Source: Chitinibacter bivalviorum (GTDB taxonomy: Bacteria > Pseudomonadota > Gammaproteobacteria > Burkholderiales > Chitinibacteraceae). Taken from it: a stretch of DNA of 64,000 nucleotides. The DNA lies in NCBI RefSeq assembly GCF_013403565.1, contig NZ_CP058627.1, positions 930,001-994,000 of the forward strand, written 5' to 3'. Shown here piece by piece: positions 31,586-35,608 of the stretch; position 1 is the first letter of the stretch, and each line of letters opens with the position of its first letter. A program made the position numbers and the translations under genes. The notes beneath the pieces were generated by a model. That model did not search any database and had not been told where the DNA came from. It saw only the letters and a program-made list of their open reading frames with translations.

Positions 31586-32050
31586 TGTTCAGCAATCGTT
31601 TGAGGCGACGTTGCTTTGTCTATTGCGGTTAATTAAAACTGAGAAGCATTCTTTGCTGGTGTGATTGTAATTATTAGCGTCTAAAAATAAAGCCGTTGCG
31701 CTCTTTAGTCTTACTCTCTCCGAGTGAATATTTACCAGATGAAAGTAACTATTAGCGATTTCATGTTCAGTTAAGAAGGAATATCATATTCATATGACAT
31801 CAAATGAAGTATGGCAGAGCGCTGTAATGAAATGCTCTGAATGCGGCAAGGAATGTAGTTGAAATTGAGTTACAACATTTTTTCGAATCTGACTTATATC
31901 AATTTTTTTACGATGTAAGTTGTTACGATAGACGGATGTCATTATTAATATTGGCCGATGTATATTATCGCTGCTGATAAACGGTAAAACATGCCAAAAG
32001 CTGTTTTGGCTCATGATGTCTAGCCGACATCGCCACTAGGAGATTACCTC
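31586..32050. other. 465-bp intergenic region upstream of pflB
   Basis: No convincing gene on either strand. It is AT-rich and holds an FNR-like site, CTGAC-ttat-ATCAA (31889-31902), whose right half is perfect and whose left half matches 3 of 5. A weak -10 (TACGAT, 31924-31929) would put the site near -40.5, the usual activating position. A further AT-rich stretch with TATATT lies at 31961. CTAGGAG precedes the pflB ATG. Anaerobic control of pflB is expected from biology; the site itself is weak. Confidence 0.45.
31889..31902 (+). promoter_or_regulatory. Possible FNR/Anr half-perfect box upstream of pflB
   Basis: CTGAC-ttat-ATCAA against TTGAT-N4-ATCAA; centre about 41 bp before a possible start at about 31936 inferred from TACGAT. 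Confidence 0.3.
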
Positions 32051-34396
32051 ATGAACGCCCCAATCGATAAATCTTTGGATCAATCACAACTGGATGCATG
32101 GCGTGGTTTTGCCGCCGGTGAGTGGCAATCCAAAGTTGAAGTACGTGATTTTATCCAAGCGAACTACACACCTTACGTAGGTGATGACAGCTTTTTGGCG
32201 GGCCCGACTGAGCGCACAACTCAATTGTGGACTGAATTGTCGGCATTACTGAAAGAAGAGCGCAAACGTGGCGTATTAGAAGTTTCAGCCCAGTTTGGCT
32301 CAACAATTACCGCGCATGATGCTGGCTATATCAATAAAAATCTCGAAACCATCGTCGGTCTGCAAACTGACGCGCCTTTGCGTCGTGCGATTATGCCAAA
32401 CGGTGGTTTGCGCATGGTTCAAAACGGTTTGTCGGCATATCACTTCGAAATGAATCCGCAAATCGAAGAAATCTATACCAAATACCGTAAAGACCATAAC
32501 AACGCAGTGTTTGATGCCTATACGCCAGAAATCATGGCGTGCCGTAGCTCTGGTGTGATTACTGGTCTGCCAGATTCATATGGCCGTGGTCGTATTATCG
32601 GCGACTACCGTCGTGTTGCACTGTACGGTATCGACTTCCTGATCGCCGACAAAAAGCGCGAAAAAATTGAATTGGATGACGTGCCATTTACTGAGCCAGT
32701 GATCCGTCTGCGTGAAGAATTGGCTGAACAAATTAAAGCCCTGAACGAATTGAAAATCATGGCCAAAAAATATGGCTTTGATATCAGCCGTCCAGCGGCA
32801 ACAGCGCAAGAAGCCGTGCAGTGGCTGTACTTCGGCTACCTGGCTGCGGTGAAAGAGCAAAACGGTGCCGCGATGTCGATTGGTCGTATTTCGACCTTCC
32901 TTGACGTGTATTTCGAGCGCGATATCAAAGAAGGCCGTATCGACGAAGCACAAGCGCAAGAATACATCGACCATTTGGTGATGAAACTGCGTATTGTCCG
33001 CTTCCTGCGCACGCCAGAATACGATGATTTGTTCTCAGGCGATCCAACTTGGGTGACTGAATCTATCGGCGGTACGGGTGAAGATGGCCGCACCTTGGTA
33101 ACTAAATCAAGCTTCCGCGTCTTGAATACGCTGTATAACCTCGGTCCAGCACCAGAGCCTAATTTGACTGTGTTGTGGTCAACTGCCTTCCCACAAGGCT
33201 TTAAAGAATTCTGCGCTAAAGTATCGATCGACACGTCTGCGATTCAATACGAAAACGATGACCTGATGCGTCCAAAATGGGGTGATGATTACGCCATCGC
33301 CTGCTGCGTATCTGCGATGCGCGTTGGTAAGCAAATGCAATTCTTTGGTGCACGTGTGAACTTGGCCAAAGCAATGTTGTACGCTATCAATGGTGGCGTG
33401 GACGAGAAAACCGGTAAAGTCGTAGCCAAGGGTTTTGAACCAATCAAAGGCGACGTATTGGAATACGACGAATTGATGAGCAAGTACGATGTAATGCTCG
33501 ACTGGTTGGCTAAAACCTACGTGACAGCACTCAATTCAATTCACTACATGCACGACAAATACGCTTACGAGCGCATTGAAATGGCATTGCATGACCGTGA
33601 TATCTTGCGCACGATGGCGTGTGGTATTGCTGGTTTGTCTGTCGCTGCGGACTCTTTGTCTGCAGTTAAACACGCCAAAGTCCATATCAAACGCAATGAA
33701 GCTGGCTTAGCGGTTGATTATGTGATTGAGGGCGAGTACCCAGCCTACGGTAACAATGATGACCGTGCCGATGACATCGCGGTATGGCTCTCAACTGCGT
33801 TTATGGAAAAAATCAAAGCGCAACCGGTGTTCTACCGTGATTCAATGCCAACGCAATCCGTACTGACCATCACATCAAACGTGGTTTATGGCAAGAAAAC
33901 TGGTAATACACCAGACGGTCGTCGTTCAGGCGCGCCATTCTCACCGGGCGCAAACCCAATGAACGGCCGTGATACGAATGGTTTTGTCGCTGCAGGCTTT
34001 TCTGTATCTAAGATCCCATACGAGTCAGCATTGGATGGTGTGTCTTGGACCGCTTCAATGACGCCAGATGCTTTGGGTCACAATGCGGCTGACCGTGTAA
34101 AAACACTGGCCGCTTCGATTGATGGCTTGTTTGGCCCACACGGCGACGAATGTTCAATGTGTGAAAGCGCGGACAAAGTGGATCAAAAATTGGCAGAGCT
34201 CGAAGAAGGCCCAGATCAATTGTTCCACTTGAACATGAATGTGTTGAATAAAGACACCTTGATGGACGCGATGGAGCATCCAGAAAACTATCCGCAATTG
34301 ACGATTCGTGTTTCAGGCTATGCTGTGAATTTTGTGAAATTGACTCGCGAACAACAAATGGACGTCATTAACCGTACATTCCACGCGAAGTGCTAA
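32051..34396 (+). CDS. pflB: Pyruvate formate-lyase PflB
   Basis: 781 residues; cleaves pyruvate with CoA to acetyl-CoA and formate in anaerobic cells by a glycyl-radical mechanism. The catalytic pair Cys418-Cys419 is in [14 protein letters not shown], and the radical Gly is about 756 in RVSGYAVNF. Compared with the E. coli protein (760) there is an insertion of about 20 residues before the radical domain that carries CSMC. RBS and ATG are clear. Forms an anaerobic unit with the small glycyl-radical gene and pflA downstream. Confidence 0.97.
34213..34396 (+). repeat. 3' end of pflB, homologous to the mini glycyl-radical gene at 34491-34674
   Basis: The last 59 residues of PflB and residues 3-61 of the small protein are identical at 50 of 59 positions, and the DNA is also alignable without gaps over 180 bp, including the stop. 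This is a tandem partial gene duplication with a 94-bp spacer. Confidence 0.9.
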
Positions 34397-34407
34397 TTTA
34401 AAGCGAG

Positions 34408-34438
34408 CAGGGCAATACCTCAAAAGGGTATTGCCCTG
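34408..34438 (+). terminator. Strong hairpin between pflB and the mini-grcA gene
   Basis: CAGGGCAATACC / GGTATTGCCCTG, a perfect 12-bp stem with a 7-nt loop. The T-rich tract after it is broken (TAGATCTTTT), so it may terminate partly or protect the pflB mRNA 3' end. Its right arm overlaps the GGGTAT end of the element at 34426-34474, so the two folds compete. Confidence 0.6.
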
Positions 34439-34474
34439 TAGATCTTTTATTTAATGATCTGCAGTCGTATACCC
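34426..34474. repeat. Inverted-repeat element with GGGTAT...ATACCC ends
   Basis: GGGTAT (34426-34431) pairs with ATACCC (34469-34474); inside, CTGTAGATC (34436-34444) pairs with GATCTGCAG (34456-34464) with one G-T pair, 11-nt loop. The 4x4 internal loop separates the stems. Confidence 0.45.
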
Positions 34475-34488
34475 AAAAGGAAATCTAG

Positions 34489-34674
34489 ATGGCGCAATTA
34501 TTTCACCTCAATATGAATGTTTTGAATAAAGAAACGCTGGAAGACGCGATGGCAAATCCAGATAAATATCCGCAATTGACCGTCCGCGTATCGGGTTATG
34601 CCGTGAACTTTGTTAAACTCACTCGTGAGCAACAATTGGATGTCATTAATCGCACTTTCCATGAGAAGTGCTAA
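34489..34674 (+). CDS. grcA: Mini autonomous glycyl-radical cofactor (GrcA/YfiD-like, 61 residues)
   Basis: 61 residues, started by ATG with AAGGA at good spacing. It is a stand-alone copy of the PflB C-terminal radical domain, with the radical Gly at residue 36 in RVSGYAVNF. In E. coli GrcA (127 residues) replaces the radical domain of PFL after oxygen cleavage; this copy lacks the N-terminal 65 or so residues of that protein. It lies between pflB and pflA and ends at a strong terminator, so it can be made with PflB and activated by PflA. Function as a repair part is inferred from homology. Confidence 0.85.
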
Positions 34675-34695
34675 TTAAGCCTCAAGAATTCACGC

Positions 34696-34733
34696 AAACG
34701 GATCGCAAGGCTTGGCCTGCGATCCGTTTTTCT
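34696..34733 (+). terminator. Terminator after the mini-grcA gene
   Basis: AAACGGATCGC (34696-34706) pairs with GCGATCCGTTT (34719-34729), with an inner AGGC/GCCT stem and a T-rich tail. Strong, so pflA may need readthrough or its own promoter. Confidence 0.85.
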
Positions 34734-34801
34734 TTGTACAACGGTATGATGCTGACCCATGCGCTGTGAAGCGAAGCAGCATGACACTCTCTGGAAAAAC
34801 C

Positions 34802-35608
34802 ATGGCACAAGATTTAGCAAAACCTGCAGGCGAAATCGTTCCTGCCGCCTTTGACGCTGATGGCAATCAATTTGGCTATATTCACTCGATTGAAACTGGC
34901 GCCGCGGTGGATGGCCCTGGAATGCGCTTTGCACTATTTGTGAGTGGCTGTCAGTTCCGTTGTCTGTACTGCCACAATCCAGATACGTGGAAGCTGCATG
35001 CTGGTAAAACGTGGACAGTCGATGCCATTGTGGCCGAGATCGCGAAGTACGCTAGTTTTCTTCGGATAGCGGGTGGCCTCACTATTTCGGGCGGCGAGCC
35101 GTTGATGCAGGCGCATTTTATTGGCGAAATCTTCCGTCGCGCCAAAAATGAACTGAAAATCCATACGGCACTGGATACGCAAGGCTTTTTGGCTGCGCAT
35201 TTGCCAGATGAATATTTTGACAATATTGACCTGGTCTTGCTCGATATTAAGCAAATGAACCCAGAGAAATACGAAGCTTTAACCGGCAAGCCATTGCAGC
35301 CGACACTCGATTTTGCTGAGCGACTGTTTAAAATGGGTAAAAAAATCTGGCTGCGTTATGTGCTGGTGCCAGGCTGGTCTGATGATGAAGCTGATGTGCA
35401 ATTGCTAGCCGACTATCTCGCAAAAATGGCTCATGATTACCCCGAAGTCTTGGAACGTGTAGAAGTTTTGCCATTCCATAAAATGGGCGAAAATAAATGG
35501 GAGGAACTCGGCTTGAAATATGAGCTGGGCGACACTAAGCCACCCAGCAATGAAGTTGTCCATCGCGTGCGCGAGCAATTTCGTGCCAAAGGCATTTTTT
35601 GCTGCTAA
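34802..35608 (+). CDS. pflA: Pyruvate formate-lyase activating enzyme PflA
   Basis: 268 residues from the ATG at 34802 (MAQDLAKPAGEIV); GGA lies 8 bases upstream, and longer in-frame starts at 34781 and above add poorly conserved residues. Radical-SAM motif CQFRCLYCHNP (CxxxCxxC) and SGGEP are present. It uses SAM and a 4Fe-4S cluster to make the glycyl radical on PflB, and probably on the mini-GrcA. The N-terminal 20 residues before FGYIHSIETG are somewhat longer than in E. coli. Confidence 0.96.
   Translation: MAQDLAKPAGEIVPAAFDADGNQFGYIHSIETGAAVDGPGMRFALFVSGCQFRCLYCHNPDTWKLHAGKTWTVDAIVAEIAKYASFLRIAGGLTISGGEPLMQAHFIGEIFRRAKNELKIHTALDTQGFLAAHLPDEYFDNIDLVLLDIKQMNPEKYEALTGKPLQPTLDFAERLFKMGKKIWLRYVLVPGWSDDEADVQLLADYLAKMAHDYPEVLERVEVLPFHKMGENKWEELGLKYELGDTKPPSNEVVHRVREQFRAKGIFCC

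Follow-up and report, generated by a model that had tools for sequence, protein, structure and literature searches.

A 61-residue stand-alone glycyl radical protein encoded between pflB and pflA in Chitinibacter bivalviorum and related genera, a probable spare domain for pyruvate formate-lyase

The stretch of DNA analysed here, called the window throughout, comprises 64,000 nt of the genome of Chitinibacter bivalviorum (GCF_013403565.1, NZ_CP058627.1, 930,001-994,000), and coordinates refer to it unless another locus is named. At 32051-34396 on the plus strand lies pflB, encoding a pyruvate formate-lyase (PFL) of 781 aa (TIGR01255, 1142.8 bits versus a cutoff of 994.2) with its own radical domain complete (PF02901 and PF01228). 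A small gene at 34489-34674 encodes a stand-alone glycyl radical protein of 61 aa (PF01228), and pflA at 34802-35608 the PFL-activating radical SAM enzyme (TIGR02493, 303 bits versus a cutoff of 231.75). In the list of open reading frames of the window the small gene is found between pflB and pflA, with all three on the plus strand; its place before pflA, whose likely ATG is at 34802, had been noted in the original prediction. The interval named there, 34213-34674, does hold the small gene and also takes in the tail of PflB, while the gene proper is confined to 34489-34674. Beyond PflB and the small gene, NrdD was the only Gly_radical frame found in this genome.

The small gene copies the end of pflB. 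The last 59 codons of pflB (34217-34393, plus strand) were recognised as the copied stretch by a direct repeat and by translation. The repeat pairs 34217-34398 with 34495-34676 and extends over 182 nt, stop codon included, at 79% DNA identity; residues 3-61 of the small protein are identical to the last 59 residues of the window PflB at 50 of 59 positions, leaving 9 differences. In an alignment the counterparts of Gly36 of the small protein (codon 34594-34596) are residue 102 of E. coli GrcA (6owr) and residue 734 of E. coli PFL, both named as radical glycines in PMC12338860. Via the same alignment Gly756 of the window PflB (codon 34316-34318) is the equivalent of E. coli Gly734. The predicted copy of the radical domain with its radical glycine kept was thus confirmed. 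A ribosome-binding site, AAAAGGA (34475-34481, plus strand), stands 7 nt 5' of the ATG. An in-frame TAG immediately abuts this ATG on its 5' side, so that a longer form of the small protein is impossible in the Chitinibacter bivalviorum genome.

The gene is followed by a rho-independent terminator at about 34696-34735 (plus strand; z -5.6, T-run), and the claim that it has its own ribosome site and a strong terminator held. This terminator was missed by a simple terminator scanner despite its good fold. Hairpin counts underestimate the T residues behind the small gene, as the stems absorb the T-run, and the motif GRTCCGTTTT was counted instead; it was found at most 160 nt 3' of the small gene in 25 of the 26 genomes carrying the gene (described below). 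The exception, G356 (Deefgea), has an inserted repeat between the small gene and a terminator-like sequence further on. At this locus (L014) two copies of a repeat, each about 124 nt long and 79% alike, flank the small gene on both sides (1266-1389 and 1695-1818 of L014).

A second strong hairpin (34407-34439, plus strand; z -6.5) lies in the spacer between pflB and the small gene and may represent a partial terminator or an mRNA 3'-end or processing element. The simple scanner scored it as terminator-like. In 22 of 26 carriers the spacer holds a hairpin at least as stable as -12 kcal/mol, and a T-rich tail behind it (at least 5 T within 8 bases behind the stem) was found in none of the 26. 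Four Deefgea loci (L040, L041, L042, L044) have spacers of about 180 nt, the first part of which is enclosed by GA(A/G)TG...CATTC inverted ends and resembles a small inserted element. A regulatory pairing of a hairpin arm with the stretch 5' of the ribosome site, an idea gained by eye, was dropped, being absent in G005 and Iodobacter.

Upstream of pflB a possible FNR-like box with 2 mismatches was found at 31889-31902 (plus strand), scored against an FNR consensus; it is weak in this genome alone, since 160 of 500 shuffled versions of the stretch also contained a site with 2 or fewer mismatches. Using a cutoff of at most one mismatch, FNR-like sites were found upstream of pflB in 33 of the 43 genomes of the family, a level that 18 of 500 shuffled versions of the window's stretch attained. 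The same cutoff yielded a box in the spacer of just 1 of 26 carriers, and no FNR promoter of its own is claimed for the small gene. In the window's spacer neither an FNR-like box nor a promoter was found; this negative promoter scan says little, because the same scan was also blank on the plus strand before pflB. The simplest reading of the layout would be a single transcript of pflB and the small gene, starting from the pflB promoter, passing a leaky or processed hairpin and ending 3' of the small gene. Since the spacer hairpin passes the terminator test, read-through into the small gene may be low.

The original prediction had proposed a search for the short form in relatives, and the form proved to be common to four genera. 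All 43 genomes of the Chitinibacteraceae that were searched contained pflB, and 26 of them, belonging to Chitinibacter, Deefgea, Silvimonas and Iodobacter, carried the small gene directly 3' of it. The same-codon ATG and a length of 61 aa were found in 24 of the 26 carriers, three of which have a second ATG one codon earlier; of the other two, one starts with GTG (L005, read by eye) and again encodes 61 aa, and one protein has 63 aa. In 23 of 26 genomes AGGA or GGAG occurs within the 14 nt preceding the start. Frames upstream of the start are open for 0 to 99 codons in the carriers, without conservation. Database entries of 72-82 aa are therefore probably start errors, which suggests that some records of the small gene may begin 11 to 21 residues too early. 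The predicted absence of the N-terminal half of E. coli GrcA was likewise corroborated, by the length of 61 aa, by the TAG directly before the ATG and by the lack of a conserved extension in all 26 carriers. In the remaining 17 family genomes pflB is followed by a pflA-like frame, with the small gene absent.

A contrary outcome named beforehand, an ordinary full-length grcA at this place in relatives of which the frame would be a truncation, was not encountered: beyond the small gene no further grcA match was found in any of the 43 family genomes (E 0.001). Together with the closed frame upstream, this ruled out a truncated full-length grcA. An order-wide search of 399 genomes yielded 35 with any match, and outside the family a second match appeared only in G296 and G325, where it is a full-length GrcA frame of 135 aa, distant from pflB or on another contig.

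The small gene is no chance frame, and selection on it is as strong as on pflB. Within genera (78 pairs) the small gene had a pN/pS of 0.049, compared with 0.033 in the PflB tail (last 58 codons) and 0.048 in the remainder of pflB; between genera (247 pairs) the respective values were 0.093, 0.101 and 0.114. For 12 disjoint pairs, which include 24 of the 26 carriers, a pN/pS of 0.046 was obtained for the small gene, with 177 synonymous changes at 447 sites and 30 nonsynonymous changes at 1641. Compared with its own pflB tail, the small gene has diverged synonymously (pS 0.69 over 26 pairs) while the amino acids are fixed. This pattern bears on the view that the gene is a silent duplication relic whose similarity to pflB is maintained through gene conversion. 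In G005 and G421 (L007, L047) the small gene is unusually near to its own pflB tail, with 0.856 identity in G005 (best other small gene 0.816) and a 53-nt identical run in G421. Only these two cases hint at gene conversion between the copies; they would fit such a relic. Against it stand the synonymous divergence with fixed amino acids and the retained start, ribosome site and terminator, and we regard a silent relic as extremely improbable.

All 26 small proteins retain RVSGYAV with the radical glycine. Such an intact activation motif, together with the missing N-terminal arm for docking on damaged PFL, would also suit a regulator acting by competition, which would damp PFL activation by engaging PflA or a PflB subunit. 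However, conservation of the whole domain is more in keeping with occupation of the PFL site than with a short decoy, and a regulatory role of this kind appears very unlikely to us.

Regarding its origin, derivation of the small gene by local partial duplication of pflB, as originally proposed, is supported by its position behind pflB in 26 of 26 carriers, the shared end, a sequence motif confined to one clade and the PflB tree. In this tree of 45 rows a single clade (100/99) unites the 26 carriers with G402, which lacks the small gene and is placed inside Silvimonas; one gain and one loss are therefore enough. The motif HLNMN was found in all 26 small proteins and in all 27 PflB of the clade. 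It was absent from the remaining 18 PflB compared, of which 16 belong to the family and 2 do not, and likewise from 94 additional rows, which comprise the order search and the best 80 of 586 places from a scan whose pattern itself contained HLNMN, and of which two repeat outside-family rows. With 17 of 43 family genomes devoid of the small gene and its loss in G402, the gene is not essential.

The competing origin is a truncation or transfer of an ordinary grcA or of grcA2, the gene of another short stand-alone domain compared below. Over a core of 53 residues GrcA2 shares 45-46 with the small protein and the window's own PflB shares 45, so that protein identity alone is no proof of a local origin. 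A protein tree of these 53 columns, few as they are, rejects neither a grouping of the small proteins with GrcA2 (p-AU 0.22) nor one with the clade PflB (p-AU 0.41). At the DNA level, on the other hand, grouping the small genes with GrcA2 (4 loci) gave a p-AU of 0.047 versus 0.31 for grouping with the clade PflB tails. The best DNA tree does not unite the small genes and these tails as one clade, and another DNA tree places the small gene of G005 beside its own pflB with the other 25 grouped. The clade-specific HLNMN, the position behind pflB with a common end, and the finding that none of the 43 family genomes has a longer grcA behind pflB also speak against a grcA or grcA2 ancestor, which we hold to be most improbable.

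The small protein was compared with the models of known stand-alone radical domains. PF01228 (Gly_radical) gave 61.6 bits versus a gathering cutoff of 22.2, covering just positions 67-106 of the 106 of the profile. Scores stayed below the cutoffs of the GrcA model TIGR04365 (91.6 versus 170), the GrcA2 model NF008341 (120.2 versus 145) and the GrcA3 model NF038360 (100.3 versus 158). TIGR04365 describes a protein of about 126 residues including an N-terminal half, while the small protein has 61 aa, and the N-terminal segment of GrcA2 (about 20 residues, KTFDERL..MK type) is absent from it. As the three cutoffs were failed and the corresponding N-terminal parts are missing, it was filed as a separately made stand-alone domain. 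With E. coli GrcA/YfiD (127 aa, 6owr) it has in common a stand-alone PFL-type domain with an activatable glycine beside a complete PflB, and its residues 6-59 align to GrcA 72-125. In contrast to GrcA, it has no counterpart of GrcA residues 1-66, including most of the disordered arm (1-60), and its gene sits behind pflB and would derive from it. PMC8683613 reports that this arm of YfiD matters for binding and activation and gives its binding place as unknown.

GrcA2 (80 positions) is likewise a short stand-alone domain, and in the loci inspected its gene precedes pflA. It differs by its roughly 20 extra N-terminal residues (KTFDERLxxMK type) and by a PflB that lacks the domain where inspected, GrcA2 being the sole radical subunit there. 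GrcA3 (78 positions), compared here by model score alone, is a short stand-alone domain too. Nearest in extent is truncYfiD, a construct consisting of YfiD 61-127 (67 versus 61 residues), which according to PMC8683613 shows that activation in cleaved PFL, followed by normal catalysis, is within reach of a bare domain. TruncYfiD is man-made, carries fourfold less radical and shows binding unmeasurable by ITC, whereas the small protein is natural and evolved with its own PflB and PflA. The original description as the minimal possible spare part was too strong, with domains of about 80 residues (GrcA2, GrcA3) and the 67-residue truncYfiD already known. Judged by its sequence, the small protein is another version of the known stand-alone radical domains, one that is bare, apparently pflB-derived and kept in four genera.

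In several Actinobacteria PFL is split: PflB ends before the radical domain, and that domain (GrcA2) has a frame of its own, about 82 aa long, which precedes pflA. Examples are Dermabacter hominis (L111), a Trueperella MAG (L112), a Corynebacterium (L116) and C. xerosis (L142). In the Trueperella MAG the PflB core (L112, 127-2244) is broken by an in-frame TAG into 458 and 246 aa, by sequencing error or as a broken gene. A PFL was found in 18 of 61 genomes around the Corynebacterium of L116 (itself included). Two separate matches were obtained for 14 of these 18, a single match with internal stop for two and a whole PFL for two, giving 16 of 18 split. Of seven Actinobacterial genomes, the four chosen for their short frame are split and the three comparison genomes whole, and none of the seven contains a second PFL. 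GrcA2 would then be an essential subunit in these Actinobacteria and not a spare part. In a contig of an SR1 bacterium (L163) the frame around the radical domain has just 111 aa, probably an effect of TGA being read as glycine in SR1 bacteria rather than a sign of a stand-alone domain.

Given the split enzymes, the small protein might be a standing alternative radical subunit that competes with the uncut domain of PflB, so that PFL is run in trans, half-way to a two-subunit PFL. Split PFL does exist (16 of 18 PFL-bearing genomes among the 61; 4 of 7 Actinobacterial genomes, four of the seven having been chosen for their short frame), and E. coli GrcA can serve a full-length inactive PflB: in vivo it restored formate production to PflB G734A, at an intermediate level (PMC12338860). 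The window PflB, however, reaches position 743 of the 744 of TIGR01255 and is no split PFL. All 26 carriers retain the radical domain of PflB, which is strongly constrained (within-genus pN/pS of 0.033 over the last 58 codons), and there is therefore no sign of drift to a split enzyme. We consider an alternative subunit unlikely.

The small protein is, in our judgement, probably a dedicated replacement radical domain for PflB, bare and GrcA-like. In E. coli, GrcA takes the place of the domain that oxygen-cut PFL has lost, and truncYfiD combined with cleaved PFL took up roughly one quarter of the radical while its kcat was no lower (PMC8683613). The small protein resembles a natural truncYfiD, the man-made form of which works in vitro although its binding and activation are poor, and for this reason is read as a spare radical domain. 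Counted as evidence were the domain with its catalytic glycine as in GrcA and PFL, the position next to the 3' end of pflB in all 26 carriers, the common start without a conserved extension, the lack of a further match in the 43 family genomes, the gene's own ribosome site, the terminator and the pN/pS of 0.049 versus 0.048. The action of GrcA on PflB G734A in vivo and the detached domain usual for PFL around the Corynebacterium of L116 were counted as well. By analogy with GrcA, oxygen would cut active PflB at Gly756, and the 61-residue protein would resupply the strand, the radical loop and the C-terminal segment to the cut enzyme. Once it sits in PflB, PflA would place the radical on Gly36, and the cysteine pair of PflB would then work as before. 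The probable purpose would be replacement of the broken PflB tail without rebuilding the enzyme.

As the binding of truncYfiD to cleaved PFL is described in PMC8683613 as below ITC measurability, a protein of such size may be a poor spare part. In the absence of the arm weak binding is expected for the small protein, unless the PflB/PflA pair has adapted or the common operon keeps the small protein in excess; linked synthesis with PflB or an adapted pair would explain how an arm-less domain binds. Rather speculatively, the clade may have exchanged the recognition arm of GrcA for gene arrangement: a bare duplicate of the pflB-encoded domain, expressed from one operon with pflB, would work as a spare part without a docking arm, the arm would be the answer to a grcA located elsewhere, and whole PFL with a linked duplicate, as here, and split PFL, as in Corynebacterium and its kin, would be two steps of one evolutionary route. 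With an arm-less domain that strong selection has preserved in four genera, the small gene seems to be the natural counterpart of the truncation experiment. The Chitinibacter pair offers a ready system for asking under what conditions a bare radical domain suffices, and it also bears on how PFLs with a detached domain evolve.

Among the matches listed from the open-licence PMC literature, titles and abstract beginnings contained nothing on the small gene, GrcA2 or split PFL, and neither GrcA2 nor GrcA3 occurred in one set of 30 listed papers. The database records of Deefgea rivuli and Iodobacter ciconiae are already titled "autonomous glycyl radical cofactor GrcA".
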